The notes beneath the pieces are model-generated. The model was not told the DNA's origin, made no database searches, and was given only the letters and a program-made list of their open reading frames with translations. The position numbers and the translations under genes are program-made. Source: Gimesia chilikensis (GTDB lineage: Bacteria > Planctomycetota > Planctomycetia > Planctomycetales > Planctomycetaceae). Taken from it: a DNA stretch of 64,000 nucleotides. The stretch covers positions 7,964,564 through 8,028,563 of the forward strand of contig NZ_CP036266.1 in NCBI RefSeq assembly GCF_007744075.1, in the 5' to 3' direction. Of this stretch, positions 3,575 to 22,637 are shown piece by piece; position 1 is the stretch's first letter, and each line of letters opens with the position of its first letter.

Positions 3575-3586
3575 AGGAGTGATGAA

Positions 3587-4165: not shown

Positions 4166-4194
4166 AGCACACCTTTTGAGTAGAGCTCTGGCCC

Positions 4195-4422
4195 CCCCAT
4201 CGCCATTGGGCTTCCTGTATTACAGAAGGCATGTTCAATTTCTACTGGAAATGCATCATGACACCACTGGCGATCATTGAATATTTCGTCGTCAATGAAC
4301 TCGCTCATATAATTCATGCCAACCACACGGAAGTGTTATGGAAAGAAGTGGATAAGTTTCTGCCTAATTATTTAGAGCGGAAGCAGTGGCTAAGAGTGAA
4401 TGGTGCTGTGATGAGTTTGTAA
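4195..4422 (+). pseudogene. Remnant of YgjP/DUF45 zinc metalloprotease
   Basis: The plus-strand frame through the ATG at 4231 reads HWASCITEG, NFYWKC and PLAIIEYFVVNELAHIIH, then ERKQWLRVNG near the stop. These match, in order, the WGSC, NWKL, VHELAHL and RKxWL motifs of the C-terminal third of YgjP-like (DUF45, SprT/M48-type) proteases. Only about 75 of roughly 230 residues remain, there is no plausible start upstream, and the first zinc His of HExxH is Asn (NELAH). It is therefore almost certainly dead. Intact relatives are often encoded beside type I restriction genes, so this may be the scar of a lost restriction locus. Confidence 0.7.
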
Positions 4423-4456
4423 TCTGCTCAACCAACAACGAATAAAAGGCTGTCAA

Positions 4457-5302: not shown

Positions 5303-5478
5303 CTGTATCAATAAATATGTCAGATATGGTTCTTGGTATACCATCTACTGAAACATCTTGAGAAGTGCGAAGAAACTTCTGAGGCCGTGAGTGCTGCCTT
5401 GCAGGGAGACTCGCCGCTTTTCGAATTTCCATCGTATCGAGTAATCCAGATAGGAAAGCCAGATTTGGAGGAAAGGAT

Positions 5479-6447: not shown

Positions 6448-6546
6448 ATAACATTAGCAAACTACTTCTCAGCAAAGAAAAATCGATTGAGAAATCGATC
6501 AGAAAATTGTCAGAAAAAGAAACATGAGCTTAATGGAAATCTAACA

Positions 6547-7347
6547 ATGGATATTTTTCAACTACAAAATGGGAGATATCTCCTGTATTTAGATGTACTA
6601 GGATTCAAACAGGTAGTGCAGAATCGACCTGCACATGAAGCTTACGAAATCATTAACAAGGCACTCGCTGAATTCCACCAACGAGGAATGTATATTCGAG
6701 AATTTAAGACTCTTTACTTCTCGGACACAATAATCTTTTATCAAGACCCAGTCGGCTGGGGCCGTTGGGCGTTTTCAGATATATATGCAATTGCGGGGTT
6801 AGTATGGACTGCCCTTGCAGCCAATGGTATACCATGTCGAGGAGCGATTTCGTTTGGGGAATTCTTTGTTGAGCTAGATTCGAATAAACAGCATTCAATT
6901 TTTTTTGGAAAAGCACTGATAGATGCTTATGAGACTGAATCAAACAAGATAAACAGAGAGTGGATGGGCATAACGCTCTGCCCCTCTGCATGTCAGGCTG
7001 TTGATTATGCGGAATCTGGAGTTATCGATGTATTAACAAGTGAAAGAAGGTTTTTCCAAGTGGACGAAGGTTTGCGTTTAAACCCGTTCATGAAGCTTCC
7101 CAGCAGTTATTTTGATTATCAGATTGGGGAAATAACTGATGATGATCTCAGCACGTGGGATGCACCTGATTTTCCAAACGATGTGAAAGCTTTAGAATTC
7201 ATTCTGAGTAAGAAAGAGCACTACCAACAATCATCAGATTCAAACAAGCAGATTACATCGAAGTATGTGACAACAAGTCAGATGTTTACTGATATGCTCG
7301 GGCCTGAGTGTGTAGAATGGGCGAGAAACATCGCAAAGATAATATGA
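6547..7347 (+). CDS. Class III nucleotide-cyclase-like protein
   Basis: 266 residues; ATG at 6547 was chosen over the upstream in-frame start because the family pattern begins at once. The order of motifs copies the class III adenylate/guanylate cyclase fold: YLDVLGFK at 14-21 (first metal Asp, D16, of FxDIxGF), LYFSDTIIFY at 56-65 (second metal Asp, D60), RGAISFGEF at 98-106, and FFGKALIDAYETES at 119-132 (equivalent to the vfGxaVnxAaRlE helix). Both candidate metal-binding Asp are present, so it may be active, making a cyclic nucleotide. I see no classical substrate-specifying Lys/Asp or Glu/Cys pair with certainty. No fused sensor domain is present. Pycsar-type phage defence uses stand-alone cyclases of this fold, but no obvious cyclic-nucleotide-gated effector is adjacent. 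Confidence 0.55.
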   Translation: MDIFQLQNGRYLLYLDVLGFKQVVQNRPAHEAYEIINKALAEFHQRGMYIREFKTLYFSDTIIFYQDPVGWGRWAFSDIYAIAGLVWTALAANGIPCRGAISFGEFFVELDSNKQHSIFFGKALIDAYETESNKINREWMGITLCPSACQAVDYAESGVIDVLTSERRFFQVDEGLRLNPFMKLPSSYFDYQIGEITDDDLSTWDAPDFPNDVKALEFILSKKEHYQQSSDSNKQITSKYVTTSQMFTDMLGPECVEWARNIAKII

Positions 7348-7535
7348 TCATAGTTTAATATATTTATCTCACGCTAAAGTAAGAATTGAGCAACTTACTT
7401 GATTACTAGGAGTTGCAGAATTTTAATACCTGCTTTACACAAATCAGTGGTGTGGTCTCCGATTACTTTTCAACATCTGTTTAAATTATAGGTACGCATC
7501 AGAACAGAATCACAGATGGTAGAAATGGGACAACC

Positions 7536-8105
7536 TCAACCAAACATCATCCTCAGCTTCGGAACCAATTCATACTCGCCTTTTAGGTGCTTAGTCATAT
7601 CCAATTGAGCCTCAATTTCGTTCTGAATCTGCGTTTGCTCAAACAGAGTATCTGGTGAATAACTGGTATCACTCTCTTCGATCGTGCATTCAAGGCTACC
7701 AATCACTGACTGAGAAACAGTCTGAGCCAACCCAACATCGTTTCTGCGACAACACAAAATGCACATTCCAACGCTCTGTTGCACTATCGATACGACGGGA
7801 TGAATGCCTTCCATTGGTGTGTCCCATCCGTCATCGATTGCCATGAAATCCATTTCGAGGGCATTCAACTGGTCTTTCTCAGGGATTATCCCGCTCAACA
7901 ATGCATCCCATAGTTCATTTAAAATATCCTGTAAAATTCGCAGATCAGATTTCGACAGATTTTCTGCGAGGAGATCGGCATGTAATGTCAGCAGATGGTC
8001 GGCACACCAGACGGAAAACAAGCATCTTTCAAAATGACGGAGCGTGCGAAGCTGCTTCGTAATAAATTCGGAATAGTCGTCAAAATCGTGGATTTGTTTT
8101 TTCAT
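7536..8105 (-). CDS. DUF416 (YjaG-like) family protein
   Basis: 189 residues, mostly alpha-helical and acidic. The pattern FITKQLRTLRHFERCLFSVWCADHLL near the N-terminus, ELWDALLSG near 70, and ICCRRND-VGLAQTVSQSVIG near 125-145 fits DUF416, a single-domain family with no known activity. It is last in a four-gene minus-strand set (8838-9143, 8459-8803, 8119-8403, 7536-8105); its start is 13 bases beyond the stop of the preceding gene, so co-transcription is likely. The start codon lacks a clear Shine-Dalgarno. Confidence 0.65.
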   Translation of the reverse strand: MKKQIHDFDDYSEFITKQLRTLRHFERCLFSVWCADHLLTLHADLLAENLSKSDLRILQDILNELWDALLSGIIPEKDQLNALEMDFMAIDDGWDTPMEGIHPVVSIVQQSVGMCILCCRRNDVGLAQTVSQSVIGSLECTIEESDTSYSPDTLFEQTQIQNEIEAQLDMTKHLKGEYELVPKLRMMFG

Positions 8106-8118
8106 CAGCAGTGAGATT

Positions 8119-8403
8119 CTATGTTTCTTTTGATTGGGACTTCATTAAAGTACGAGTAGCCATCAAAAGATTATCACGAAACTCGTCATCTTCTAGAAAC
8201 TTTTGAATCACTTCACTATCAGTAGAAGGAGATTCATCTTGCACGAGTAAACGTAGATCCAAATCGTTTAGATCAGACACAATATTTTCATTCATAGTTA
8301 TTTCACTGGCTGGATCTAAATGATGTTTCAGACGCCGTAGAAACATCTCCGCGTGTATCTGGTGCAGAATCTCCTGATAATCATTTGGAATATCATCTGG
8401 CAT
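8119..8403 (-). CDS. Hypothetical acidic protein
   Basis: 94 residues if the ATG at 8403 is used; this ATG has AGGGAG 8 bases upstream, whereas the longer in-frame version would overlap the HNH gene and lacks a site. The product is acidic and helical (PDDIPNDYQEILHQIHAEMF at the start, FLEDDEFRDNLLMATRTLM at the end). I do not recognise a family. It sits between the HNH and DUF416 genes in a tight minus-strand cluster. Confidence 0.5.
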   Translation of the reverse strand: MPDDIPNDYQEILHQIHAEMFLRRLKHHLDPASEITMNENIVSDLNDLDLRLLVQDESPSTDSEVIQKFLEDDEFRDNLLMATRTLMKSQSKET

Positions 8404-8458
8404 TTCTATTCTCCCTGTTGGGGGCGGTTCATTTACTTGAGAATGAGATCTAATCAAA

Positions 8459-8803
8459 TTAGAGCGTTTTGGGATGGGCATTCCATTTATGGCCCCCACC
8501 ACTAAAATCATAAATACACTCTAGCCCATCCAGTGCTCTGGAAATTTCAGCAATCCGATTCAAAACCGGTTTCAAGTCATTTTCATCGTCGATGTGATTT
8601 GGATACACGCCCTGCCAGATGTCATGACATCGACGACAGACCAGAATGAGCCATTCTTCGTTGTAAAATCCCTGATCGTAACGAAGATGATGGGTATCGA
8701 TTCCGGGTCTGCCACAGAGTTGGCATAGCCCGTGATCTCTCTCATAAACGCGTTCGCGGACACGTTGCCATTTTGTTGTCTTGTAGAGTGACTTCTCGTG
8801 CAT
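8459..8803 (-). CDS. HNH endonuclease-like protein
   Basis: 114 residues with the core of an HNH nuclease: RVYERDHGLCQLCGRPG (first CxxC of the zinc knuckle) at about 17-33, then DTHHLRY (catalytic HH) at 35-41, then LVCRRCHD (second CxxCH) at 53-60. All metal and catalytic positions appear intact. It is small and unfused, as in phage and mobile-element HNH enzymes or in stand-alone nicking effectors. The gene is 34 bases after the 101-residue unknown gene and upstream of two helical proteins. Confidence 0.75.
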   Translation of the reverse strand: MHEKSLYKTTKWQRVRERVYERDHGLCQLCGRPGIDTHHLRYDQGFYNEEWLILVCRRCHDIWQGVYPNHIDDENDLKPVLNRIAEISRALDGLECIYDFSGGGHKWNAHPKTL

Positions 8804-8837
8804 ATTTTATTTATACAGATGAGATCGATTTCTGATT

Positions 8838-9143
8838 TTAGAATCCTTCTTCGAGCCAGTTGATTTTCTCCAACTTAGATGGCCTCCGTTCCTCATAGTA
8901 AGATAGATATTCCAGTCTCACGGAAAGCTGTTCCGCATCTTCTGGTGAAAAGTGTATGTCGTTTACTGTAATGGTATCATTCCGATCAACACCAATGTTC
9001 GCTTCTATAAATGCAGTAAGTCGTGCATTCTCAATTTCAATCCGAAAATTCTGTGCCTCTTCGAAAGAAAGAATTAGTTGATCGCCTTCATCTGTCAGAA
9101 TTTCAATTCTATCGTCATCTCGAATCCATGCTTGGCTACTCAT
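8838..9143 (-). CDS. Hypothetical acidic protein upstream of HNH gene
   Basis: 101 residues, acidic, mixed strand and helix, with no signal peptide or membrane segment. Two short repeats of the type DRIEILTDEGDQLILSFEEAQNF and NDTITVNDIHFSPEDAEQL suggest an internally duplicated small beta-alpha unit. I do not know the family. It is first in the minus-strand HNH/DUF416 cluster, so its promoter should lie just above 9143. Confidence 0.45.
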   Translation of the reverse strand: MSSQAWIRDDDRIEILTDEGDQLILSFEEAQNFRIEIENARLTAFIEANIGVDRNDTITVNDIHFSPEDAEQLSVRLEYLSYYEERRPSKLEKINWLEEGF

Positions 9144-9686
9144 CGGTTTATTCCCGTTCTAAATACTTATAATTCACAACCCAAATGGCTTCTCTACATA
9201 ATTCAAGATTGCGGTCTGGAATACGTGGTACGTAATGCGATCCAGAAAAGAGAAGTTGGGATGCCAAACCATGCGATGGTTCGGCGGACGCTTTTGAGCT
9301 CAAACCAAAGAGCCGAAGCATTCCAGTAGAAGAAAGTAAATCAATGTAATTCGTGGTAATTCAGAGAGCGAATATTAGCAGAAATGAAAATTCTAATCCA
9401 GAGGAATTTCAATCATTCAGTTCTTGGAATAAAAATCTGAGATCGATTTAAAATGCGAATGTCATCCAGAATGAGATTCAGAAGAACTTTATAATTCATC
9501 CTCCCCTGCTCCACACAAAAAACATCCTTTCTTATTCCTTTCATAATTCTTCCGACTTTGTGTCCAAAAAAGATTAATGAAAACTCTACTTAATCATAGG
9601 ACAGTGTTTTTGTTAAACTGCTCACTGAATTATGAAAGGAAAAGGGGGAGCCACTCTGAAAACAGCTCCCCCATAAAATAAATGAT
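9144..9686. other. Long A+T-rich divergent intergenic region
   Basis: About 540 bases between the minus-strand HNH cluster and the plus-strand primase. An imperfect hairpin CCAAACCAT-GCG-ATGGTTCGG lies near 9262-9282, and a strong one at 9644-9671 is listed separately. No credible gene. In a mobile element with its own primase, a region like this is a candidate replication origin, but I see no clear iteron array to support that. Confidence 0.4.
9644..9671. repeat. GGGGGAGC hairpin upstream of primase
   Basis: Perfect 8-bp stem GGGGGAGC / GCTCCCCC with a 12-base loop, ending 15 bases before the primase ATG. Read on the minus strand it is followed by CCCTTTTCC and could terminate leftward transcription. 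A near-identical hairpin (GGGGAGCT stem) occurs at 13941-13970, so the sequence may also be a shared regulatory site of the element. Confidence 0.55.
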
Positions 9687-11729
9687 ATGTCTTACAAGTA
9701 TAATAGTGCTGAGAGCACAATTTCAGTCCACGTATCTGAAGTATTTCAGAACAATCTTTCAAACACAAAATCAAAAGTCCCAGTGCATGATGACTGGCGT
9801 ATCGTTCCAAAGGAATACGCCACCAGAAATAGATGGACTTTGCAGTTTCGAAAAGTGAAGCCAAAACAATCCCCAGCAGCACAATTCCGAATTGTGCAAA
9901 CACGTAAGCTGGAGACAGTAGATCATGAATTCGATTCTGAAAAGTACATCAGCCTGTATCACGTCAGCCAGACATCACCAGTCAAAAAGACTCCGTTGAA
10001 TGTGTCACGCCATCTGTTTTACAGATGTTTCGTCGAGCCTGCTGATCGCAATAAATTAATTAAATGGACTCAAGGAGCGTGGGAACATGATGGTGACGAT
10101 AAGTATTGGGATGCTGAGGCTGACAACTGGAGCTGGAGACATTTCAAGGAAAGCTTTGGTCTCCAAAATTCAATAGACCACATCTGGGGAAAAGAGATTT
10201 ATGGAATCTTTGGGGCCAAAAGTTCTTATTGTTTAATTATCGATCTCGATTACCACAACAAAGGTCTTGTTTTATTTTTAAACCGTCTGAGTGCCCTTCT
10301 GGAGCTGTTTCATGGGCAACATCGATGTCATTATCAGGTTTCTGAAAACAACGCGGGAGGCGTCCATCTAATATTGTTTTTCGGGAACAATTCATCTTTA
10401 GAATCACGTCGTCGTTGGTTGTGGAGACAACTGGCTGGTGCAGACAGAAAAGACCCAGAACTGAATTTTACGAAAGGTTCTGAGTATGACCCTAAGTTCA
10501 ATGTGGAGGTTTATCCAGACACTCAAAGAGGTGTTCGGTTGCCACTAGCTCGCGGCAGAACGATGTTGCTAGACAGACCACTGGATTTAATCACAAGTCG
10601 TGGCAAGGAAACACAGGATGTTGTCGGTTACATTCAGTGGTTGGGTGATTCCAACAGACAATACTTGCCCAAAGATGATGTTTACCAGTATGTTGTTGAG
10701 CGATTGGATGTTCGTCCTGCAGAAATTAAAGAACAGAAACAACAAAAGACGGTTGTTCAAAAAGCAACAAAGCCACAAAAACAGGAAAAAAGATCGTTAA
10801 AAGGAAAGACTCGTGGTGCCATTGTTGGATTCTGGAAAGATGGAAACTTGGAATATTTCATACATCTAAATTCTGCCATAAACACAACATTACATGCGAT
10901 GCGTGCTGAAGGTTTGTCGGAAGAGGACGCGGTTGATGTTGTGATGTCTTACGTGGAAGGATTACCAGACAAAACAGTCAGTTCCCGGCTGGATGATTTA
11001 CCGGAAGTGAGGCGAGTTGCAGAGAGGACTGCTAATAAGATCTGGGATTCGCCTGTTTCTGGTAAATGGCAAAAGTCACAAGAGCGATGGAACAACATTG
11101 GTTTTCGGGTTTCTGATAAAACAACATGGGTTGTTACATCGAAGAAGCATGAAGATGTAGTTGTAGACTGTCCCCAGTTAGAGTTTTCTGAGGAAGAAAA
11201 GTCTCAGTTAATAAGGGAAATGACTCCATTATTAGTCGGAAGTAAACAGGCCCAAAAACAGGAGAAGCAGGACGAAGTGATTCGGGCAGTTGCCTATTTT
11301 TTAAGGTATGTACGATGTTGTCCTCGTGAAATACCGGTAAGTGCCCTGCCCCATGTTCTGTGCGATTATGACATCAAGATTAAAAGTCATGACAAACAGA
11401 CACAGTTTTTGCGACTATTAACTGAATGGGACTGGATTTATGTTCGTATAGAGTATTGTCATCCAGAAAAACACAGGACTAAAACGGGAAGTAATCGTGC
11501 TAGAGCATATGGTGTAGGTAAAGCATTTACGGAGCGATTACAGGCTGTTGTGGTAGAGACAGAAACTGTAATTACTAACAATACAACAAAATATAAAAGT
11601 GATCTATATACTGTCTCCTACTTTTTGAGGAGACCTGAAAGATTGAATATTTCTTCATTTGATGATCAGCTTAATAATCAGTTTTTGACTACCAATCCGC
11701 GAGTAACGCACAGGGAGTCTGTGACCTGA
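9687..11729 (+). CDS. Archaeo-eukaryotic primase (AEP)-like replication protein
   Basis: 680 residues. The AEP catalytic set is visible: motif I IDLDYH at 185-190 (DxD), motif II GGVHLILFF at 224-232 (His227), and VEVYPD then GVRLPLARG at 273-290, the LPL stretch typical of mobile-element AEPs. A Lys/Gln-rich linker spans about 340-370, and the C-terminal ~300 residues are helical, with a possible winged-helix part near 555-620 (ALPHVLCDYDIKIKSHDKQTQFLRLL). It likely primes or initiates replication of the element. No helicase domain is fused; the separate two-module helicase at the left edge could partner it, which is inference. Confidence 0.65.
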   Translation: MSYKYNSAESTISVHVSEVFQNNLSNTKSKVPVHDDWRIVPKEYATRNRWTLQFRKVKPKQSPAAQFRIVQTRKLETVDHEFDSEKYISLYHVSQTSPVKKTPLNVSRHLFYRCFVEPADRNKLIKWTQGAWEHDGDDKYWDAEADNWSWRHFKESFGLQNSIDHIWGKEIYGIFGAKSSYCLIIDLDYHNKGLVLFLNRLSALLELFHGQHRCHYQVSENNAGGVHLILFFGNNSSLESRRRWLWRQLAGADRKDPELNFTKGSEYDPKFNVEVYPDTQRGVRLPLARGRTMLLDRPLDLITSRGKETQDVVGYIQWLGDSNRQYLPKDDVYQYVVERLDVRPAEIKEQKQQKTVVQKATKPQKQEKRSLKGKTRGAIVGFWKDGNLEYFIHLNSAINTTLHAMRAEGLSEEDAVDVVMSYVEGLPDKTVSSRLDDLPEVRRVAERTANKIWDSPVSGKWQKSQERWNNIGFRVSDKTTWVVTSKKHEDVVVDCPQLEFSEEEKSQLIREMTPLLVGSKQAQKQEKQDEVIRAVAYFLRYVRCCPREIPVSALPHVLCDYDIKIKSHDKQTQFLRLLTEWDWIYVRIEYCHPEKHRTKTGSNRARAYGVGKAFTERLQAVVVETETVITNNTTKYKSDLYTVSYFLRRPERLNISSFDDQLNNQFLTTNPRVTHRESVT

Positions 11730-11891
11730 TGAGAAATTGTATATTTTAGAACAACATTCTGAACTCAATTCAGGTTGGTGCTTTTTTCTCATTTCCATGC
11801 CGCCCCCAAACAAACACATGCTAGAGTTGGTACCACATCATTTTCCCACAAGCATCCAGCAAGAATTAGTTCACAGTACAAAAAATGCTTT

Positions 11892-12050
11892 ACCTACAGT
11901 CATTCTATTCTGTGAACAGTTTCCGTGGCATCAACCTCCATGAAAGCGGTTAGAAGTTCGTTATTAATCGAATCCCTGATGTTTTCAGGCTGTTCAGGAA
12001 TTAAAACAACAAACCCCTTGATTACAATGATAAAGCCCCTGTGAAAAATG
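11892..12050 (-). pseudogene. Remnant of a ParB-methyltransferase 3' end
   Basis: On the minus strand this reads ENIRDSINNELL before a stop, closely resembling the ESIRESVNSEPM tail of the ParB-methyltransferase encoded at 14064-15491. DNA is similar over roughly 100 bases, including GTTCG(T/C)TATTAA, TCCCTGATG and the downstream TGTGAACAGTTTC. The frame is closed by a stop upstream and has no start, so it is a dead fragment, probably left by a duplication or by recombination between related elements. Confidence 0.5.
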
Positions 12051-12066
12051 AATTCACAGAGGCTTT
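12032..12066. terminator. Hairpin terminator between convergent genes
   Basis: AAGCC-c-CTGTGAA stem pairing with TTCACAG-a-GGCTT, a 12-bp stem with one mismatch and a 7-base loop, followed by a short T run on the plus strand. It is placed to end transcription of the plus-strand primase and of the minus-strand genes 12167-12761. Confidence 0.6.
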
Positions 12067-12166
12067 TGAAACTTTAAGTTTCTCATATACTTCTCGTTGC
12101 AATCCACACGCTACGAATAGCGGATACTGCCCGCGAAGCAGGCAGAAAAATATTTTGGTCCAAAAA

Positions 12167-12475
12167 TTACAAATGCGAATCAATGAGATTCTCAACTGAT
12201 TCGTCAATCATCAAAGCAAAATCACCACCAGAAGCATCAAACGCATCACGAAAACCAAATCTGTCAAACCCGAAATACTGCTCAAGCAATATTTCAACAT
12301 CAGTTGCCAGCTCGGCAGAGACTGAGTTTGTATCTGGGATATCTTCAGACATATCGCCATAAATATCAGTTCTGCCTTTATACTTTTTGGTTAAGGCTTC
12401 CAGTTCTTTTGATTTTTCGGCCCAAAAGTTTTGCATTGCCTCTGTTGTGATTTCTCTTTTAATTGTTTTTGTCAT
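12167..12475 (-). CDS. Hypothetical acidic helical protein
   Basis: 102 residues, strongly acidic after a basic N-terminus (MTKTIKREITTEAMQNFWAEKSKE). Helix-rich, no Cys, no membrane segment. Unknown family. It starts one base after the stop of the zinc-ribbon gene (12477-12761), so the two form an operon; a Shine-Dalgarno-like GGGG lies inside the end of that gene. Confidence 0.5.
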   Translation of the reverse strand: MTKTIKREITTEAMQNFWAEKSKELEALTKKYKGRTDIYGDMSEDIPDTNSVSAELATDVEILLEQYFGFDRFGFRDAFDASGGDFALMIDESVENLIDSHL

Positions 12476-12476
12476 C

Positions 12477-12761
12477 TCAAATCCCCTTTGAGTTGAGAAA
12501 ATTATGGATCAATAATGAGCGTATTTCGGTCTTAAAAATTGCGGTTGGCTCATCAACCCCAGTCAACCAAGGTAAGCTGTCGTTTGGCTTGATTGCACTT
12601 GCACAATCATCACATAGATTGATTTGCCCTCTATGCATATCATCACCTATATTTTCGAATCCTTTGTGCAAGTCTGATTTACTGCACTCCACAATGACAG
12701 ATACACGTTTGTTATATCTTTTGCACCCGCAACGATAGCAGATAGATTTATTATTACTCAT
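12477..12761 (-). CDS. Small zinc-ribbon protein
   Basis: 94 residues with ICYRCGCKRYN at about 7-17 and NLCDDCASAI near 48-57, two CxxC pairs about 38 residues apart that would hold one zinc. The rest has no recognised motif. Such proteins are common in phage and plasmid early regions as DNA- or RNA-binding accessories. An AGGGGA ribosome site lies upstream of ATG 12761. Confidence 0.55.
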   Translation of the reverse strand: MSNNKSICYRCGCKRYNKRVSVIVECSKSDLHKGFENIGDDMHRGQINLCDDCASAIKPNDSLPWLTGVDEPTAIFKTEIRSLLIHNFLNSKGI

Positions 12762-12887
12762 CTCTCAAATTCCCCTCATAAAAATTAAAGTATGATTGTC
12801 TGCCCCAAAAGCAGCAGGGCAACCTTATATCTGATCTGCCATGATGGTGCCGAGAATCATTTTTGACTTTTTGTGTCACAAAGATGC

Positions 12888-13082
12888 TTAGTTTTTCGAA
12901 GCATCAATTACTTCATCATTCACGATCTGCTTTATGCAGTAGATCAAATAGGATTCAATGTCTACTTTTGATAAACCGCTAGTGATCTTGTTGTAGATAT
13001 ATTCTTGGTCATCATCATCCAAATCAGTAGCATCCAAAATCTTAATTAAGATGACTGTTAGTTTGTCTCTGTCTGTCATCAT
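12888..13082 (-). CDS. Hypothetical small acidic protein
   Basis: 64 residues, acidic (DATDLDDDDQEYIYNKIT), predicted all-helical. Unknown family. GGGAAAACAGAA precedes the ATG at 13082. It lies in the same minus-strand direction as its neighbours and may be part of their operon. The short length makes it only moderately certain. Confidence 0.4.
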   Translation of the reverse strand: MMTDRDKLTVILIKILDATDLDDDDQEYIYNKITSGLSKVDIESYLIYCIKQIVNDEVIDASKN

Positions 13083-13239
13083 TTCTGTTTTCCCTCACAT
13101 TTTGAAAGTTTCCATGTAGAACTGATCAATCATGTCTTCCATCTCATCCATATCTGTCAACTGGTAAGACATAACCAACGCAGGGAATCTACCGGAACCA
13201 GAAGTGCGGGACGACCGAAGAAAATATTGAGTACGTCCC

Positions 13240-13896
13240 TCACTCTTTGAGGGAAGTTAGGTGATAACCTTTCCAGCAACTCTCGATATAATCACCGATG
13301 CCTGATTTGTGGGTAAATATCTTACGGCGAATCACATCATCGACGCGGTTGTTCACAATATATTCAGGATATTTCTTCTGCATTTCAGTCGTTGTAATCC
13401 AAGCCCCCTTGGCATCAACTATGCATTTAACAATCGCAGCCATTTCCTGATCGATATGGTAGTTCTCTCCATTCATCTGGATGATTTCTTTTTTGATATT
13501 GACTCTCGCAGGAATCTCCAGTCGTGGTTCCTCTGAATTATGCAGCCAGTCATTCCAAGCTATGACTTCACTTTTGGGAATAACTGAATTCGATTCCAGA
13601 TCGAGCCCAGCTTCAACTATCCTCTCTATTGCTTCGTTCCCAAAAAATTCGAGCAATTCATTTTCAGACCAAAAATCAGGTAGACCGCCTTTGCGTCCAA
13701 AAGGTTTTACAAATTCCAGCACTTCATGTTTGCCATCCAGAACATAGTTGTTTGAAACTAATCGACCGTCTAAGTAGCTGATAAACTGAGACGGAACATT
13801 TAAAATATCCCTTAGTTTTTCGGCAACTAAATAAATTGGGTGACCGGATAACTCGAACGACGCTTCACTCGCACCATGAATAATTCTGATAGACAT
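13240..13896 (-). CDS. Ubiquitin-like beta-grasp protein with winged-helix-like tail
   Basis: 218 residues. Residues 1-70 look like a ThiS/MoaD/ubiquitin-type beta-grasp: a first hairpin (IRIIHGASEASFELSG), a helix (IYLVAEKLRDILNVP), then the strand-turn pattern YLDGRLVSNNYVLDGKHEVLEFVKPFGRKGG, where V-L-x-G-x-E-x-L-E-F-V is the diagnostic end of the fold. GRKGG at 68-72 lies where ThiS-type proteins end in GG, but here the chain continues. The C-terminal 80 residues (ITTTEMQKKYPEYIVNNRVDDVIR) resemble a winged helix. It is directly downstream of the ParB-methyltransferase. Function unknown; conjugation to a target is possible but not shown. Confidence 0.5.
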   Translation of the reverse strand: MSIRIIHGASEASFELSGHPIYLVAEKLRDILNVPSQFISYLDGRLVSNNYVLDGKHEVLEFVKPFGRKGGLPDFWSENELLEFFGNEAIERIVEAGLDLESNSVIPKSEVIAWNDWLHNSEEPRLEIPARVNIKKEIIQMNGENYHIDQEMAAIVKCIVDAKGAWITTTEMQKKYPEYIVNNRVDDVIRRKIFTHKSGIGDYIESCWKGYHLTSLKE

Positions 13897-13940
13897 CGCT
13901 TTCTCCTTCTATGGAACAATTGTTGGAAACACTGAAAAGA

Positions 13941-13970
13941 TGGGGAGCTGGCTTAAACACAAGCTCCCCA
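13941..13970. terminator. GGGGAGCT hairpin after the ParB-methyltransferase gene
   Basis: 9-bp stem TGGGGAGCT / AGCTCCCCA with a 12-base loop. Read on the minus strand it is followed by TCTTTTC, so it could be a terminator or attenuator between the ParB-methyltransferase (ends 14064) and the beta-grasp gene (starts 13896). It is nearly the same hairpin as at 9644-9671. Confidence 0.55.
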
Positions 13971-14063
13971 TACAGCACACATCCAGCACTAATCCGTTTT
14001 CAGCAAAAATACTCTTTACGGAATAGCATTTATGCTGTGAACAGTTTCTGATCTGCCAAAGAC

Positions 14064-15491
14064 TCACACAGCAATCATTGGTTCGCTATTAACCGACTCC
14101 CTGATGCTTTCCGACAGTTCAAGGACCAGACCAGATGCAAGAGCGGGACTGACTGCATTGATTTCAGACCAGTCTTGAAGCATTTCATTGATATCAGAAC
14201 GCCCCAACTCCACAGCGTCCTCAACGTATTCAGTCAGCGATTTGGTCAACTGGAGCCGTCTGTGTCCGTTTTGCACACATTCTTCATCGATATCGCAACC
14301 GATAAATCGACGGTTCAAATTCCGGGATGCAACCGCAGTCGTAAATCCTCCGCTACATGTGTCGACGACAAAATCTCCAGCGGAAGAAAATGAACGAATT
14401 AAAAACTCAGCCTCCGTGAGTGGCTGCTGCCAGTCGTGCCAATCTTTCTCTTTTGATTCAATATGGCTAACGTCTTGAAACACACCTTTCCCGTTCATTT
14501 TCCCCTTTGAGAAAACCAAGATAGGCTTCCAACTATTGGTGATGTTGCAGTTCCCAATATTGATCTGGTTTGCATCCCCGCTCCAACAGGAAGCGATCAT
14601 CCATCGGTAATCGAGATGTTTACCAAGCATTTCCATTACCTGCGGGAGCCAATACTGACCGCAGTAGGTGACTAACACGCCACCATCAACAAGGACTCGT
14701 TTTGCGAATTCTGCAAGCTCTTCGATTTGTGGAAGAAATGATTTGTCATAAGGAATGTCAGTGCAAATAAGTTGCACTGATTCAGGCTCGATTCCAGCGA
14801 CTGATTCCAATTTTTGGAATGGTGTATGAAAAAGTCGAATATCATCATCTGTGACTGGAATGACAGATTCACCTTCTACCTTTCGTTTCTGTGCATTCTG
14901 ATTGCGTTTGGCGTGCCGTTGGGCACTTATGACATCGTGTGTTTTCCCCGAACTCTTCTCAGGCAACTGGAGAATCATCTGACACGCTTTTTCGGTCTCC
15001 TTGGGTGTGTTCGTAATAATGCGTTTCTGCTTTTTGGGCCGCTTTACGCCATCCTTCCCACGAAGCGTTTCGTGCTTGTCAATTTGACAACTTGCCTCCA
15101 ATTTCTTCCGCACACTGGCGACAGTGTTTTTGGACACCCCGATAATCCCTGCGAGGTGGTTATCTGCAATTTCTGCATCACGGAGCAGATAGTCTTCGAT
15201 GAGTTTACGTTTCTGATTCTGGTTCAGGTGGCGTCGATTGCAGTTGAGGATAAGTGCCAGTTCCAGTTTTTCAGTTTCATTTACAAAATCACGAACTTCG
15301 GTTAGGCAGTCGATCCCCAACTCTTCGCATGCACGTTTTCGTTGAAATCCATCAACAACTTCCCCGGACTGATCGACGATGATGGGTACTTCGACACCTC
15401 GATCAGCAATAGAAGCTTTAAGTGCTTCGAATTCCTCTTCACTCATTACTGGGAAAAACTGAACCTTGTTTTTGTTGATCACCTTGCTCAT
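14064..15491 (-). CDS. ParB-like nuclease/DNA methyltransferase fusion
   Basis: 475 residues. The N-terminus is a ParB/Srx domain: EEEFEALKASIADRGVEVPI and the GEVVDGFQRKRACEELG box at 43-59. A helix-turn-helix follows at about 105-130 (AGIIGVSKNTVASVRKK). The C-terminal half is an amino-methyltransferase of the N6-adenine/N4-cytosine class: motif IV DIPY at 245-248, where DPPY is usual, and the SAM site DTCSGGFTTAV near 377-387. Such fusions are typical of phages and mobile elements and modify the element's DNA. The Pro-to-Ile change in motif IV is unusual and might lower activity. Divergent from the Dam-like gene across a region rich in GTGTC motifs. Confidence 0.8.
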   Translation of the reverse strand: MSKVINKNKVQFFPVMSEEEFEALKASIADRGVEVPIIVDQSGEVVDGFQRKRACEELGIDCLTEVRDFVNETEKLELALILNCNRRHLNQNQKRKLIEDYLLRDAEIADNHLAGIIGVSKNTVASVRKKLEASCQIDKHETLRGKDGVKRPKKQKRIITNTPKETEKACQMILQLPEKSSGKTHDVISAQRHAKRNQNAQKRKVEGESVIPVTDDDIRLFHTPFQKLESVAGIEPESVQLICTDIPYDKSFLPQIEELAEFAKRVLVDGGVLVTYCGQYWLPQVMEMLGKHLDYRWMIASCWSGDANQINIGNCNITNSWKPILVFSKGKMNGKGVFQDVSHIESKEKDWHDWQQPLTEAEFLIRSFSSAGDFVVDTCSGGFTTAVASRNLNRRFIGCDIDEECVQNGHRRLQLTKSLTEYVEDAVELGRSDINEMLQDWSEINAVSPALASGLVLELSESIRESVNSEPMIAV

Positions 15492-15522
15492 TCATCTTCT
15501 CCTTTTTGTGTAAATTTGAATT

Positions 15523-15732
15523 GAGTGTCTCTTTGACACCTGACTTATGGGTGTCAGCGGGTGTCGTGGGAGTGTCAGCGAGAAAGCTTTTCCGGCGAAA
15601 ACCGGGGAATTCCACATCCAAAGTTGGGGCAATTTCCCCAAAACCTGATCAAAGGCATTTTTCCATGTCTCCTGTTTCCAACGGTTTAAACTGATTATTG
15701 ATGAACTCGATTTGGATCCACATATGGGTGTC
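15523..15732. promoter_or_regulatory. Cluster of GTGTC motifs between divergent methyltransferase genes
   Basis: Six copies of GTGTC or its complement: GAGTGTC at 15523-15529, GACACC at 15535-15540, GGGTGTC near 15555, 15565 and (as GAGTGTC) 15576, and TATGGGTGTCA at 15725-15733. GACACC and the following GGTGTC form an inverted repeat with a 9-base spacer. TATGGGTGTCA occurs twice. This looks like an operator or ParB-type binding region serving both divergent genes. Confidence 0.5.
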
Positions 15733-15754
15733 AAATACAGGAAAACTCGATACA

Positions 15755-16843
15755 ATGAACAAAATGACAGACCACCCTGCATCCAATCGATCTTCCACCT
15801 TCCACAAAAATCTGGAGGCATTTCTTCAGTATGAATTCCTTAATCAGCGGACCTTCGCTGATGAACTGGGAGTCGATTACAAGTGGATGAGAAGGCTGTG
15901 TCACCGGGGACTTGAGCGGGTAGACAGGCGAACTCAGAAAGATCTGGAGAGAATTACTGACCGCTATGGGCTCCAAATTTCTGATCTGTGGAGAGAGCAA
16001 ACCACAGAGAATTTCAGTCCGATTCAAGATCAGGTATTGATCAAATGGACTGGCAGCAAACGTCTGCAAGCAGAGGAAATCATTAGTAGATTTCCCCAAA
16101 AGATAGAGACATACTATGAGCCATTTGTGGGTGGTGGATCTGTCCTCTATCGGCTCTTGAAATCCGATATCAAAGTCAATCGATATCGCTGCTCAGATAC
16201 CTGCAAACCATTGATAGGGCTTTGGAGGATGGTGAAAGAGAATCCCCGGAAGCTGGTTCTCAGATATGACGAGATGTGGAGAAAGCTTCAAAAGGAAGGA
16301 GCGTCATTCTACCAGTCAGTCCGAGATGAATTTAATGATTCGCAATGCCCTGCTCTCTTCTTCTTTCTATTGCGAACATGCAGGAATGGTTTGATTCGTT
16401 TCAATCAACAGGGAAATTTCACTGCTGCATTTCATCATGGAAGAGGCGGTATGAAACCAGATACCGTAAGAAGAATCATTCTGGACTGGAGTAACTTACT
16501 TAGACAATATGATGTGCGATTCTACTGGCGGAACTACCAGCGGATTCAGGCATCAGAAGGCGATCTTTTATATCTCGATCCACCGTACAGAATCAGTCCA
16601 CGTTTCGTTTTATATAACGGACCATTTGATTTTGAGACATTCTTCTGTTGGCTGAGAAAGCAATCGTCAGATTATCTTCTTTCACTGAATGGATTCTCTG
16701 GAGAGGAAGATCGTAGAGTTGATGTGCCCACTGATCTTTATGATGAGCATCTTTTGATCGATTCTGGATCCTCTTCATTGGCGAGAATGAATGGAAATGC
16801 AGGTGGTGACCTAAGAGATAGTCTTTACATTTCCAGAAAGTGA
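15755..16843 (+). CDS. Dam-like D12-class N6-adenine DNA methyltransferase
   Basis: 362 residues from the ATG at 15755 (GGAAAA about 10 bases upstream); an in-frame TTG at 15698 would add 19 residues. An N-terminal segment (about 15-80) resembles a helix-turn-helix (RTFADELGVDYKWMRRLCHRGL). The methyltransferase follows: IKWTGSKR at 96-103, SAM motif EPFVGGGSVL at 122-131, and catalytic LYLDPPY at 272-278, followed by the usual Dam-type end. Methylates adenine in DNA; the target site is unknown. With the ParB-methylase it probably protects or marks the element's DNA. Confidence 0.8.
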   Translation: MNKMTDHPASNRSSTFHKNLEAFLQYEFLNQRTFADELGVDYKWMRRLCHRGLERVDRRTQKDLERITDRYGLQISDLWREQTTENFSPIQDQVLIKWTGSKRLQAEEIISRFPQKIETYYEPFVGGGSVLYRLLKSDIKVNRYRCSDTCKPLIGLWRMVKENPRKLVLRYDEMWRKLQKEGASFYQSVRDEFNDSQCPALFFFLLRTCRNGLIRFNQQGNFTAAFHHGRGGMKPDTVRRIILDWSNLLRQYDVRFYWRNYQRIQASEGDLLYLDPPYRISPRFVLYNGPFDFETFFCWLRKQSSDYLLSLNGFSGEEDRRVDVPTDLYDEHLLIDSGSSSLARMNGNAGGDLRDSLYISRK

Positions 16844-16956
16844 ATTTTTGGAAATCTGGAAAACTGGAATCTGGCAATTTGTCAAAATGACAGGTTGCGG
16901 TTTTCAGATTTGGGTTTTGGTTTGAAAAACATCTTACAACAAGATTCAGCTAGACA

Positions 16957-18960
16957 TTATTTTTTCATTAGAAAACCACATGTCGGAAATTCAATTTTAA
17001 CCTCCCACCATCTGAGGAATTGCCTTGCCCGGTTGTATGTGTTTCGTGCAGTACCCTGACTAATATCTTCTGTTTTGATTTTCTTTAAGAGATACTTTTG
17101 CCACTTGAATTGTATCCCATCCTTGAAATGGCTTTTCCTTGTGATTTTATTTTTTGCAGTGAATTCCTTAAACCTAGCGATCTGCGGAATAATCACTCTG
17201 AAACTACCTTTTTTCTGTTCAGCTCGTTGGATGTTTATCCAAACGTCAATAGCTTCATTTAAGGTTGCTGGTATTTTATCTGGCAATTCATAGGGTTTAA
17301 TTTCATTACACTGCTTGGCTAATTTATGTAACACCATTCTGTTGGCAGACTTTTGATCTCGTAGATCAAAAGCGAAGAGTTTCGGAGATGCAGGAGTTCC
17401 AAAGTTGTGATGAATTGCTGTCGTACCTTTAATCGATACATCAGCAACACCGTGGCCAATAACGAATTCTGTCATCGTCGTTTTGTTGGCCCAGAAAATC
17501 TCAACTAATGCATAGACTTTTCCGTAATGCTTTTCCGGTTTGATCCATATTTTGTCAATAGCGTCCACCATTTTACTATGGAGTCTCTGGCGTAATTCAT
17601 TTTCATTCGGGCTTTTCGAGAGAAACTCTGCCATATACAACATATCAATAGCATTATTGTGCTGTTGTGATTTCAATTCAGATAGTCGTTTCTTGTATTC
17701 TTTTTTCTGTTCTTCAAGTTTGTTTAATGAGGAGACAAGAATACTAATAGGGCTACCGGCGGCATCAATCATCGCCGTTTCAACTTCTTTCATTCTTTTT
17801 TTAATATCGATCAATGCAGATTCACATTTTGAAATGTCTTTTTGTGAATTAGTTTGAGTCGGTGAGATGTCAGAAGGTTGGATCGCGAGTAATGTTTCCA
17901 AAAACATTCGATTCAGTTCGGATAAATCGACAGACACGGAGTCCGAATCATCTAATTTTCTGATATGACCATAAGAAACCAACCGTCTCTGATAATCACT
18001 TTTCCGTCTACTTCGAATCATATGCATAGAATGACGATCATTAGCATTAAAAACCAAACCCTTAAAAATATTGACATATGGATCATGTTTAGCAATGTTT
18101 GGTTTTCTTTTTCCTTTTTCATTTTGGGCCATGTACCAAAGATCTTGAGAGATTGCGGCGGGATAATAATCTTCTATTGGTTGGCCTGCTGGAACTTTCT
18201 TTCCTTTTTGGTGATCATATTCCATGGGCTGTAGTTCACCATAAGTGGCAGTATCATTTAATACTTTAGCAATGTAACTCAGGTTCCATTTTCCAGAAGT
18301 TCCGATTGGATTAATTTGCTTTTGCAATGATTTTAGGATCTGTTTTTGGCTTTGTCCTTCGGCTGTTTGCTCAAAAATGAATTGAATTGCTTTAGCTCCA
18401 CTGTTGAGTACAAAACATTTTTTCTCATCATCATAGCCGATCCAAGCAGGACAACGTTTATTGAATATTTCCTTCTTATCTCGTTTATTGTTCCAACTTG
18501 ATTTAAGCCGATCGCTTTTGTTTTTGGATTCGATATATGCTATATGAAAATACATAAGAGGCATTAACAGAGAAAAGAAATCCTTAATCGATTCTTTTGT
18601 GTAGAGTCTTTCATCTGGTTTTAAAACAGCGATATTAACGCCAGCAGAAAGAATTTGTTTAAACATTACAAAAGCTTCGTCAGCCCCTTCTCTTGAAAGC
18701 CGATCAAGATTTTCAACAAGCAGAATTGCACCCGGTTCAATATCACCTGCCTGACACATAGTTATGAATTTCTTGAGTGCTCCCGAGTGCTTATTTCTAC
18801 CTCTAAAAGCAGATACACCCAAGTCTTGAAATTTAAGATTGCTTTCAGTGTGCTTGTTGCGAGCGATCCATTTCTGTCCGAGTTCAAGCTGTCTGCGTTT
18901 GCTGTCCCCGAGTTCTTGTTTTTTTGATGAGAATCTCAGATATGAATAAACCAATGCCAT
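16957..18960 (-). CDS. Large serine recombinase (integrase of the element)
   Basis: 667 residues. The resolvase domain (1-150) has YSYLRFSSKKQ with Ser11 as the expected nucleophile, and ENLDRLSREGADEAF with the conserved Arg residues. A recombinase domain follows (about 165-290). The usual zinc-ribbon Cys residues are missing: the site reads GLVFNANDRHSMHM. A coiled coil lies at about 385-450. The last ~100 residues (RFKEFTAKNKI, GTARNTYNRARQFLRWW) look like the core-binding domain of tyrosine recombinases, an odd addition. AAGAG lies 8 bases before the ATG. It is the last gene before the broken comM, as expected for an integrase next to its attachment site. Confidence 0.85.
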   Translation of the reverse strand: MALVYSYLRFSSKKQELGDSKRRQLELGQKWIARNKHTESNLKFQDLGVSAFRGRNKHSGALKKFITMCQAGDIEPGAILLVENLDRLSREGADEAFVMFKQILSAGVNIAVLKPDERLYTKESIKDFFSLLMPLMYFHIAYIESKNKSDRLKSSWNNKRDKKEIFNKRCPAWIGYDDEKKCFVLNSGAKAIQFIFEQTAEGQSQKQILKSLQKQINPIGTSGKWNLSYIAKVLNDTATYGELQPMEYDHQKGKKVPAGQPIEDYYPAAISQDLWYMAQNEKGKRKPNIAKHDPYVNIFKGLVFNANDRHSMHMIRSRRKSDYQRRLVSYGHIRKLDDSDSVSVDLSELNRMFLETLLAIQPSDISPTQTNSQKDISKCESALIDIKKRMKEVETAMIDAAGSPISILVSSLNKLEEQKKEYKKRLSELKSQQHNNAIDMLYMAEFLSKSPNENELRQRLHSKMVDAIDKIWIKPEKHYGKVYALVEIFWANKTTMTEFVIGHGVADVSIKGTTAIHHNFGTPASPKLFAFDLRDQKSANRMVLHKLAKQCNEIKPYELPDKIPATLNEAIDVWINIQRAEQKKGSFRVIIPQIARFKEFTAKNKITRKSHFKDGIQFKWQKYLLKKIKTEDISQGTARNTYNRARQFLRWWEVKIEFPTCGFLMKK

Positions 18961-19037
18961 GCTATACTCTTACTTAATACTGGTATAATAGAACGAAAGG
19001 GTTAAATTCTATCAGATACTCCTAGAACTACAATATC
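18961..19037. other. Probable element/chromosome attachment junction
   Basis: The comM frame is closed by a TAG at 19023-19025 and homology to comM begins at about 19035 (LLFLDEL). The change from A+T-rich element DNA to G+C-rich coding DNA happens here. AGATA and TATCT form the ends of an imperfect inverted repeat at about 19014-19037. The other attachment end lies left of the window, so the duplicated core cannot be defined. A TATAAT at about 18982-18988 could drive rightward transcription. Confidence 0.6.
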
Positions 19038-19667
19038 TTGCTGTTTCTGGACGAGCTGCCCGAATTCAATCGCCGTACCCTGGAAGTGTTACGACAGCCA
19101 CTGGAAGGCGGGGAAGTCACCATCTCCCGTGCGATCGGCAGCGTTACGTTTCCTGCGAACGTGATGCTGATCTCCGCGATGAATCCCTGCCCCTGCGGCT
19201 ACCTGTCTGATCCGAGACGAAAATGTTCCTGCAATCCGATGCAGATCGAGCGTTATCTTTCCAAAATCAGTGGACCGCTGCTGGACCGGATCGATATTCA
19301 CATCGAAGTTCCCCCGGTCCCCTTTCGCGAACTGTCAAACCAGACTTCAGGCACCAACAGTCAGACCATGCGCGAGCAGGTGTCGGCGGCCCGTGAGATT
19401 CAGGCGCGCCGCTTCGCAAATGAAAAGACGTCGCATAACGGTCGAATGACACCTCGCCAGTTGAGGAAATTTAGCCAGCTGGCCTCGGATGCTGAGGGCC
19501 TGTTGAAAACTGCGATGGAGGAGATGGGCCTGTCTGCCCGGGCACACGATAAAATTTTACGCATCAGTCGCACGATTGCAGATCTCGACCAGAGCGATCA
19601 GATTACTGCAGCGCATGTCAGTGAAGCTATCAACTACCGCACTCTGGATCGTCAGTTCTGGTCGTGA
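19035..19667 (+). pseudogene. comM: comM/yifB 3' part, cut by element insertion
   Basis: About 210 codons of a YifB/ComM Mg-chelatase-like AAA+ ATPase, beginning inside the Walker B strand (LFLDELPEFNRRTLEVLRQP) and continuing through sensor 1 (MLISAMNPCPCGY), the CxxC-type zinc motif PRRKCSCNP, the arginine-finger region (SGPLLDRIDIHIEVP) and the C-terminal Mg_chelatase_C domain to a normal stop. A full protein is about 500 residues with Walker A upstream; that part is absent. ComM is a helicase that aids branch migration in natural transformation in other bacteria. The fragment could not work alone. Confidence 0.85.
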
Positions 19668-19670
19668 AAC

Positions 19671-22637
19671 TCAGTCTGCCTGTTCTGATGCCTGCGGCGC
19701 GGCCAAGTGCGAGATGGTCTCCAGCAGTTTCTGTTTATTGACCGGCTTGGTTGCATAGGCATCACAGCCCGCGTTCAGACATTTTTCCATATCGTTTTTC
19801 ATCGCGTGGGCCGTCAGTGCGATAATCGGACGCTTATAGCCCGCCTCTCTGAGTTTGCGTGTTGCCGTGTAACCATCCATGACCGGCATCTGCATATCCA
19901 TCAGCACGAAATCATAGGGGTGCCCGGCTTCCTGGGCAGCCAGTGCCTGTTCGGCCCCGAGCTTTCCATTATCTGCCAGTTCGACTTCCATGCCCTCTTT
20001 CTTCAGCAGAAACGAGATGAGTCGCTGATTGTCGAGGCCGTCTTCCACGATCAGTACACGCCGGGAGGCCACACTCCGGCCAGACTCCATAGGATGCTCC
20101 TGTTTCTGTTCCTCTGTGGCTTTGCGGAAGGAACTTTTATCCAAGTGCAACAGACGCACTCCTTCGAGAGAGCCGGTGTTGACCGTGATGGTGAAAGTAC
20201 TTCCCACGCCGACTTTACTCGAGACCTTGATCTGTCCACCCAGCATTTCGACCAGGCGTTTGGAAATGGCCAGCCCCAGACCGGTGCCGCCATATTTCCG
20301 GGTCGTTGAATTGTCGGCCTGTGTAAACGGTTGATAAATCTGAGAGAGTGCTGCTTCCGAGATGCCGATGCCTGTATCAATGACGTCGAATTGGAGTTGC
20401 GCACAGGAGTCTTCCAGGTTGATGGTCTGGATGCAGAGTTTTACGTAACCGGTCTCGGTGAATTTGATCGCATTCCCCAGCAGATTGATCAACACCTGAC
20501 GCAGTCGCGTTGGATCAGTAACGATTGTTTCCGGAATCGGATTCTCAAATTCAATCTGCAGTTTGAGCTGCTTCAAGTCAGCCTTGACCTGCATCAGAGC
20601 AGCAATGTCCCGCACGATCTCTTGAATATTGACCCGTACCTGCTCGAGTTCGATCTTGCGGGCTTCGATCTTGGACAGGTCCAGAATGTCATTGATCACG
20701 CCGATCAGATACTCGCCATTGCGTTTGACAATGTGAGCTGCCTCAATATCTTCTTTCTCTTTCAGATTACCGAGCAGGATATCAGTGAAACCCAGAATGG
20801 CCGTCATCGGAGTGCGGATTTCATGACTCATATTGGCCAGGAATTCACTCTTGGCATCACTGGCAGCTTCGGCCCGTTTCCGTGCTTCGTTCAATGAGCG
20901 TTCGTATTCTTTGCGTTCGCTGATGTCCTGGATAATTCCGGTGAAGATTTCCCGGTCCGCCAGAACAACTGAACTCACCGCCAGTTCGGCGGGGAACGTT
21001 GATCCATCCTGTCGCTGGGCCACGATTTCCTGCCGCGAACCGATCGCGCGAACCAGTTGCGGATTCAAGTCTCCTTCGGAGTATTTGTGCTGCAGACTCT
21101 GGTGCAGGGGAGGAATCAGCAGGTTGATGTTCTGCCCGATCACCTCGTGATTCAGATAGCCAAACAGGTGCTCCGCTCCCAGGTTGAACTCTTCAATCCT
21201 GCCTTCCAGGTTAATCGTGATGATGGCATCCATCACGTTGTCCATGATCGAGCGGTAACGCAGCTCTCGGTCTTTTACATCCGATAACAGGACTTCCTGG
21301 GCGTCCAGCACACGGTTGTATTGATATCCCACAATCCCGGCTTCGGTAAAGTCGTCGACCTCGGCCCGAGAAGTGTTGTCCCCCTTTTCGTGGGCAATCA
21401 TGGTTTCCAGCAGACTGTGCAATTCGGTAGAAGCACCATGTTCGGCCACGTTGAGACCAATTTTTTCGTCCCCCGCGGAAACCCGGATCGGCAGGAAGCG
21501 ATTCAGCGTCCACATACAAACCCAGATAAAACTGAAGCTCCAGACGAAGCAGACAGCCACCCCAAGGGCTTGAATTCCCAAGAGGTGCATGCGTGTGATA
21601 CCGTGCGGTACGTGCTCCATTTCAGCAAAGAGGGCGACAGCCAGGGTCCCCCAGACACCCGCGAATCCATGCACGGGAATCGCTCCCACGACATCATCAA
21701 CTTGCATGCATTTTTCGAGCAGATACGTTGCTCCCAGCATGACCGCGCCGGCGATCAAGCCAATCAGAATCGCGCTGGGATAGGAAACAACGTTACAGCC
21801 CGCTGTCACAGCCACCAGCCCTGCCAGTGATCCATTGAAGATATTTTCTACCGAAATCTGTTTAGACGAGAACATTTCCCAGAGGAGTGCAAAGACGCCC
21901 CCCGCGATCCCGGCCAGAATCGTATTTAATATGATAGAGGGAACCTGTCCGTTTAATGCCAGCGTGCTCCCGCCGTTAAAACCAAACCAGCCAAACCACA
22001 GAATCAAAAATCCGAGTGCCGCCAGGGGCAGGTTACTTGCTGAGAAGCGGGATTTATCAGCGCCCGCGCCAAAGCGTCCCGTGCGTGGTCCCAGGATCAA
22101 CACTGCTGCCAGCGCAGACCAGGCTCCGACGGAATGCACGACACTGGAACCGGCGAAGTCCATGAAGCCCAGCTTTCCCAGCCAGCCTGCCGGGGCACCT
22201 GCGGCATCCCGGGCCCAGGCCCAGTGACCGAACACAGGATAGGCAACCGCACCAATGGCACAAGCCAGGATCACATAGGAGCGAAACCGCATCCGCTCTG
22301 CGACCGCGCCCGAAGAGATCGTCATCGCGGTACTGCAGAACACAAGCTGGAACAGAAAGACAACGGTGGCCCAGTGAGTGGTGCTGTTGTCAGCAAAGGC
22401 GAAACCGGTCGTTCCGATCAGACCCTGAAAGGACTCGCCAAACATGAGTCCGTAACCGAAGAGCCAGAACAGGAACGTTCCGATAAAGAAATCGACGACA
22501 TTCTTGGTCGCGACATTAATACTGTTTTTCGAGCGTGACAGTCCTGATTCCAGGCAACAGAAGCCTGCCTGCATCAAAAATACCAAGCTGGTACAGATTA
22601 ATACCCAGATCGTATTCGTGGTTAACTCGTAAGACAT
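19671..22637 (-). CDS. Ammonium channel-histidine kinase-response regulator fusion
   Basis: 988 residues. Residues 1 to ~410 are an Amt/Rh channel. The pore residues are kept: DFAGSSVVH matches AmtB D160 and H168, VHGFAGVWG holds the second pore His, and the gate Phe residues lie in LVFCSTAM and [12 protein letters not shown] helical linker leads to a PAS domain (about 455-575, ending in [10 protein letters not shown]), then HisKA with NMSHEIRTP, HATPase ([18 protein letters not shown]), and a REC domain (about 855-975, phospho-Asp in [13 protein letters not shown]). It should sense or transport ammonium and pass a phosphate to its own REC domain, as in known Amt sensor fusions. Its stop is 3 bases from the convergent comM stop. 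Confidence 0.9.

Follow-up and report, generated by a model that had tools for sequence, protein, structure and literature searches.

One and the same comM gene has very probably received two islands of predicted defence genes, each inserted site-specifically by its own large serine integrase, the two integrases belonging to different families, with crossovers 78 nt apart. The gene lies in a closed planctomycete chromosome of 8,289,354 bases, of which the window analyzed here is a stretch of 64,000 nucleotides (G000:C1:7964564-8028563); positions with the prefix G000:C1 are those of the chromosome, and positions given alone are those of the window. An earlier note, made from the letters of the window, had proposed one serine-recombinase element within the Walker B strand of comM. 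That element, here called island B, is borne out, with both of its ends found and a clean empty site in relatives; what the note had missed is a second island, A, which displaces the 5′ part of the gene.

With the intact comM of a relative from the genus (G002) used as the query against the surrounding 160 kb, the comM of the window's genome was found as three pieces on one contig, and a genome-wide search found no whole comM anywhere in that genome. The 5′ part (codons 1-282) runs from G000:C1:7852145 at 90% identity to the query, the middle piece runs from G000:C1:7936248 with TISEA as its first residues and measures 78 nt between core starts, and the 3′ part, which starts in the Walker B strand at about codon 304 and includes the stop codon, occupies 19041..19667 on the plus strand (tblastn, 90% identity to the query). 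As the earlier note had read it, this last part begins in mid-domain directly beyond the recombinase gene: with the core at 19041, the restart reads LLFLDEL, LL being codons 303-304 of 511, and the TTG at 19038, given as this frame's start in the list of open reading frames, falls on the element side of the island B core. When the three pieces are joined at the shared cores, the result is 511 codons with a single, terminal stop codon, and this unbroken frame implies that both insertions were clean. The 5′ and 3′ parts are 130,628 bp apart in total. The note had named the lack of a comM 5′ part within 100 kb to the left as a refutation of its reading; taken literally this condition holds, as the 5′ part, on the same contig, ends 130.6 kb away, but the distance is due to island A. 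The other end of the proposed element, with comM DNA, lies 47.3 kb to the left. A single element with a lost comM middle can be ruled out, since the middle piece is located between the islands. In all 7 intact genus relatives, comM is directly enclosed by a sigma-factor-like gene upstream and, downstream, the counterpart of the right-flank chromosomal gene found here at 19671..22637 on the minus strand. The expected flanking neighbor was found in 8/10 loci from interrupted genomes, the two loci lacking it being L024 (G001) and L077 (G004).

Island A (G000:C1:7852976 to 7936248, 83,272 bp) separates the 5′ part of comM from the middle piece, and island B (G000:C1:7936326-7983603, 47,278 bp) separates the middle piece from the 3′ part. 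The right part of island B fills positions 1..19040 of the window, delimited by core positions and GC content and assigned no strand, with its left 28 kb lying beyond the window. GC content is 42.7% in island B and 46.1% in island A, vs 53.1% and 54.6% in the flanks, in keeping with the A+T-rich stretch at whose end the earlier note had placed a serine recombinase frame. The target of island B is the codons for LLF in the Walker B strand, and its shared core, CTGTT, is found at 19041..19045 (plus strand) and again at G000:C1:7936326-7936330. The target of island A is the codons for TISEA, with the shared core ACCATCAG[C/T]GAAGCG. Both islands thus show a short shared core together with an empty site in relatives, as is expected of conservative insertion, and in each a serine integrase lies where the island meets comM. 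Each integrase probably made the insertion at whose end it sits: by conservative site-specific recombination, integrase A would have inserted island A at the TISEA codons and integrase B island B at the LLF codons. Serine integrase att arms are about 20 nt long; with crossovers 78 nt apart, both attB sites could therefore be whole.

Integrase B is encoded at 16957..18960 on the minus strand and was identified as a large serine recombinase of 667 aa by Pfam, Foldseek, and a structure model. It matches Resolvase (PF00239, 6.6e-14) and Recombinase (PF07508, 1.6e-11), and Y7, R9, S11, R87, and R90 are invariant across 57 aligned relatives; S11 is presumably the catalytic serine. The structure model (mean pLDDT 85.5) aligns full-length to solved serine integrases, with 9y66_A as the best Foldseek match (E 3.3e-17), and places long helices at residues 370-449 as a predicted coiled coil; a single-sequence model was uninformative (mean pLDDT 35.5). 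With a predicted catalytic domain, Recombinase domain, and coiled coil, and at more than 450 aa, the protein has the makeup of a large serine recombinase as judged from its sequence and model. The zinc ribbon PF13408 gave no match in integrase B at E up to 10 and was matched in the relatives G005 and L139, in the latter under the cut-off. The zinc-ribbon stretch of integrase B (about residues 297-335) is without the cysteines present in most relatives.

Integrase A (G000:C1:7852972-7854705, or L004:972-2705) lies to the left of the window, and its last codons and stop codon come from the shared core and comM. In the circle form, its frame is 20 residues longer (597 vs 577 in the compared stretch), so the insertion may change the integrase's own end. 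It matches the NCBIfam model CcrB weakly (83.9 bits, with a cut-off of 900), and it gave no match among the junction frames in the search that did find the B family. Kin of integrase A with 28-44% identity occur in the family at 24 places, spread over 21 genomes; their short flanks contained no comM, and a preference for comM is consequently not demonstrable for that family of integrases. On sequence grounds, integrase A reached comM independently of the B family.

The cargo of the two islands fits predicted mobile defence islands, going by the domains matched. Island A holds BrxA, BrxB, BrxC, PglX, and PglZ, and among these genes a 675-aa frame with a ChlI match, which we take by its place to be BrxL, as well as DrmD-like and TmtA-like frames, a weak SIR2-type match, TIR, and ArdC. 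Island B holds a Shedu C-terminal domain, a GmrSD N-terminal domain, HEPN, ArdC, and several DNA methylases, including a ParB N-terminal domain with a DNA methylase (14064..15491, minus strand, Pfam) and, beside the integrase, a D12 class adenine methyltransferase (15698..16843, plus strand, Pfam 1.6e-30) with a homologue in island A (48% identity, blastp 2.1e-130). In total, 10 of 44 island B frames match one of the 65 frames of island A, which means that the islands share genes despite their different integrases. Helicase-type frames of about 1,125 aa at G000:C1:7964251-7967643 (B) and 7883226-7886594 (A) are 89% identical. Carbonic-anhydrase-like frames at G000:C1:7935362-7936054 (A) and 7945666-7946322 (B) share 32% identity and are apparently the same gene; Carb_anhydrase was matched by an unspecified two of the 76 frames scanned. 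A 680-aa frame of island B at 9687-11729 has no Pfam family and a poor NCBIfam match only. Among the Pfam families listed for the scanned island frames, which in one of the scans numbered 25 of 51, there were no relaxase or conjugation genes, no phage structural genes, and no transposition genes.

An alignment of nine B-family proteins was used to scan named genomes, and the best 80 of 230 relatives were kept. The G002 comM matched in 52 of these 80 loci, and queries made from the first comM matches added 10 more, with 28-35 residues of the comM start; the remaining 18/80 gave no comM. In all but one of the 62 comM-positive loci the match lies within 1.7 kb of the integrase, and in 38 of the first 52 it lies within 100 bases; the exception, L168, has its match about 4.4 kb away and is labelled "codon 30" in the tree described below. 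The suggestion that the element has its target gene in many hosts is thus supported by 61 of the best 80 of 230 relatives, with near-identical loci (e.g., four from Aureimonas) counted several times in that figure, so that the 80 loci are not independent events. The comM sites used by the B family are near codon 30, at Walker A (about codon 219), and at Walker B (about codon 304), with related integrases at the same Walker B point in G012 (L140), G148 (L138), and Rhodopirellula (L139). Beyond this phylum, too, members of other phyla carry relatives of the integrase next to comM. A scan of viral contigs with the single integrase B protein gave no relatives, and a second viral scan gave 80 loci with one comM fragment, L273, where comM restarts at GPLLDRID near codon 383. 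At the level of the phylum, 5/392 genomes had an integrase match, the window's own included, and the sole new place (G057) had no comM in its flank. Searches of the plasmid and phage collections each gave 19 records, all of which covered less than 80% of the query.

Within the genus, 17 genomes were compared, i.e., 16 relatives and the window's own. The gene is whole in 7/17 (G002, G003, G008, G010, G013, G014, and G016) and split with a B-family integrase at the junction in 6/17 (G000, G001, G004, G005, G009, and G012). Three were assigned to neither group: G006, where comM runs to the contig end, G007, where it is spread over two contigs whose retrieved flanks contain no integrase, and G011. 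G015 gave no comM match. Breaks in draft genomes were not counted as insertions if they coincided with a contig end or if the retrieved flank contained no integrase, and the break in G091 was rejected as well, its two frames 5 bases apart pointing to a frame shift or small indel. Among breaks near codons 349-357, only G105 was accepted, with both comM parts in one contig; its junction, at about codon 356, carries a serine integrase of a third family whose Recombinase match is just under the Pfam cut-off. G012 looks like a second double-island case from its sequence, in that a Walker A integrase and the left end of a Walker B island flank a comM piece covering residues 216-305; its pieces lie on two contigs, one of which joins the outer parts, making the assembly doubtful. 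Two cuts in comM are also seen in L170 (Cobetia) and L209 (Halomonas), near 5690: one is occupied by a Walker A serine-integrase island, and the other lies near codon 288. This second cut adjoins a 589-aa frame without a Pfam match, and a Tn7-like reading of it stays unconfirmed. In G121 (L121:85-3757), a comM stump (residues 1-228) is followed about 1.4 kb on by a whole comM with 63% identity to that of G002, and a part of the interrupted copy, residues 223-511, is on a different contig; this may be an element bringing its own comM.

Conservation of the target sites was measured across the family, as nucleotide identity over 41-nt windows in 30 intact comM genes. The windows ranked at the 65th percentile of comM for the Walker B core, the 49th for Walker A, and the 92nd for both the codon-30 site and the island A site; taken together, the five comM sites were more conserved than randomly drawn sets, 591 of 20,000 of which did at least as well. 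The idea that island B cut inside the most conserved motif is therefore weakly supported: the five sites are jointly above average, but the Walker B cut site is moderately conserved at the DNA level and not among the top stretches. This joint conservation would be enough to explain the choice of comM if the islands gain nothing from breaking it, i.e., if a widespread, conserved, and dispensable gene is a safe landing place and any effect on transformation is incidental, a reading that we rate as having a little less than an even chance. It sits well with the fact that comM would be whole once rejoined, and the islands could presumably still leave. Set against it are the retention of dprA and comEC in the window's genome, the passages of Durrant et al. 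(PMC10083194) in which DNA competence genes are reported as overrepresented among the targets of serine integrases, and the lower transformation that accompanies comM loss in Acinetobacter in passages of PMC11472951. Those latter passages describe ComM as a helicase aiding the recombination of heterologous DNA in transformation. The interrupted comM presumably no longer works, and the organism of the window has likely lost this ComM function.

The ends of six elements were joined and compared for inverted repeats over 21 pairs against 2000 shuffles, with the cores chosen by eye. A strong inverted repeat arises when the ends of island A are joined (15/21 pairs), and likewise for G001, G004, and G005 (17, 17, and 19 of 21 pairs), with 0/2000 shuffles as good in each case; the repeat of G009 is weaker (12/21 pairs, 109/2000 shuffles as good). 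The joined ends of island B show none (10/21 pairs, 1178/2000 shuffles as good), and an inverted-repeat search near its right junction gave 0 pairs. Tn7-like islands make a 5-bp target duplication. The 5-bp shared stretch of island B and its ends without an inverted repeat would accordingly also suit an AbaR-type, Tn7-like transposon with CTGTT as its target-site duplication and the serine recombinase as cargo, and passages of PMC11472951 describe Tn7-like islands entering the comM of Acinetobacter. We consider this very improbable for island B, as related integrases sit at the same comM point in G012, G148, and Rhodopirellula and others sit at further comM points, no transposition genes are among the Pfam families listed (one scan giving 25 of 51), and the in-register stretch, compared by eye, varies in length, being 5 bp in island B, TGTT in G012, and longer but interrupted in G148. 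TGTT is in register in the Walker B elements of G000, G012, and G148 alike (by eye), so the exchanged pair would be TG, GT, or TT. That the comM scrap between the islands was imported from another host, e.g., by imprecise excision of one island, is likewise highly unlikely: at 78 nt between core starts the scrap is too short to prove its own origin, but it is exactly the missing part, restoring the 511-codon frame without loss or gain, and G012 too has a comM piece between two islands.

Returning to two integrase-mediated insertions, integrase B has an extra C-terminal domain at residues 546-667 (16960..17325, minus strand), defined by a tail profile and by model helices at residues 567-651 of moderate confidence (567-583, 591-603, 616-629, and 635-651, with block confidences of about 56-87). 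Such a tail of about 120 residues is present in 3/85 family rows (the window, L138, and L139), all in the Walker B clade, of which the fourth member, L140, is without it; a short tail remnant lies in another frame behind a G012 Walker A integrase, and no tail domain was found in the 80 loci of the second viral scan. Direct Pfam and PDB searches with the tail were empty, Foldseek listed serine integrases for the body and nothing for the tail, and an NCBIfam search with the tail returned one model, XerC (E 0.044). When a profile was built from the three tails, its best stretch on a tyrosine recombinase of the same genome reached 18.4 bits; among 650 shuffled proteins, the top score was 5.6. Over 59 genomes, this profile found ten places: itself, the G012 remnant, and 8 other frames. 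In 7 of these 8, a Phage_integrase match (5 over and 2 under the cut-off) starts 16-25 residues after the tail match, the eighth having no Pfam match at all; in L232, the tail match coincides with Phage_int_SAM_5. By this profile, the tail resembles, and appears homologous to, the core-binding (SAM-like) domain of tyrosine recombinases.

A tree of 85 integrases was built (50 Walker A, 14 codon 30, 4 Walker B, and 17 unlabelled), omitting the frame-shifted integrases of L186 and G146 and entering L124, L108, and L109 once, as the same genes as L138, L140, and L145. The four Walker B integrases form one side of a branch with an SH-aLRT of 99. The codon-30 label needs 6 changes, 5 of them forced by the starred branches, vs a shuffled mean of 13.2. 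In a more careful tree of 31 rows, the viral-contig integrase L273 joins the Walker B four with support of 100/100, the four without it receiving 82/36 only. Being unrooted, these trees give no direction for the target shifts. It is conceivable, and to us a somewhat doubtful proposal, that one integrase family has stayed loyal to comM while its cut site moved (codon ~30, ~219, ~304, and, in the viral case, ~383), that a tyrosine-recombinase-type core-binding domain was acquired on the Walker B branch, and that such shifts let a second island enter an already occupied comM.

SCC elements with Ccr serine recombinases are also found stacked, several at one gene, where they share a single terminal site and leave the gene intact. 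The islands described here resemble them in their serine recombinases and in the stacking of several elements at one gene, and differ in using two sites inside a gene that is cut twice. A preference of serine integrases for a comM-type gene is already published (PMC10083194; PMC9203015). The passages of Durrant et al. 2022 (PMC10083194) name a magnesium chelatase/ATP-dependent protease gene as the target of 12.4% of predicted site-specific integrases; these large serine recombinases are the same kind of enzyme and the gene is of the same family by its description, whereas the main-text passages treat one gene cluster and make no mention of several sites, double elements, planctomycetes, or a tyrosine-recombinase-like domain. 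The serine recombinase element sr1WO of prophage WO in Wolbachia, in passages of PMC9203015, likewise sits in a magnesium chelatase gene with gene portions on both sides, but it is a prophage in a symbiont, and those passages mention no second element in the same gene. AbaR islands of Acinetobacter, in passages of PMC11472951, also break comM, some of them carrying defence systems, but by Tn7-like transposition rather than the conservative exchange of serine integrases proposed here for the Gimesia islands. In the mostly open literature searched, neither titles nor the openings of abstracts describe a comM occupied by two islands at separate sites, or an integrase family that uses several sites in comM. 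Nor does any title or abstract start in the searched literature report a fusion of a serine integrase with a tyrosine-recombinase core-binding domain.

Related integrases with differing sites in one gene form a natural series that makes the change of a serine integrase's target directly testable. If the reading of the tail is true, the chemistry of a serine integrase would here be naturally joined to the DNA-binding part of another recombinase class, which would be of interest to builders of integrase tools. For the organism itself, one comM can hold two predicted defence islands at once, and the gene would consequently be whole again only if both leave.
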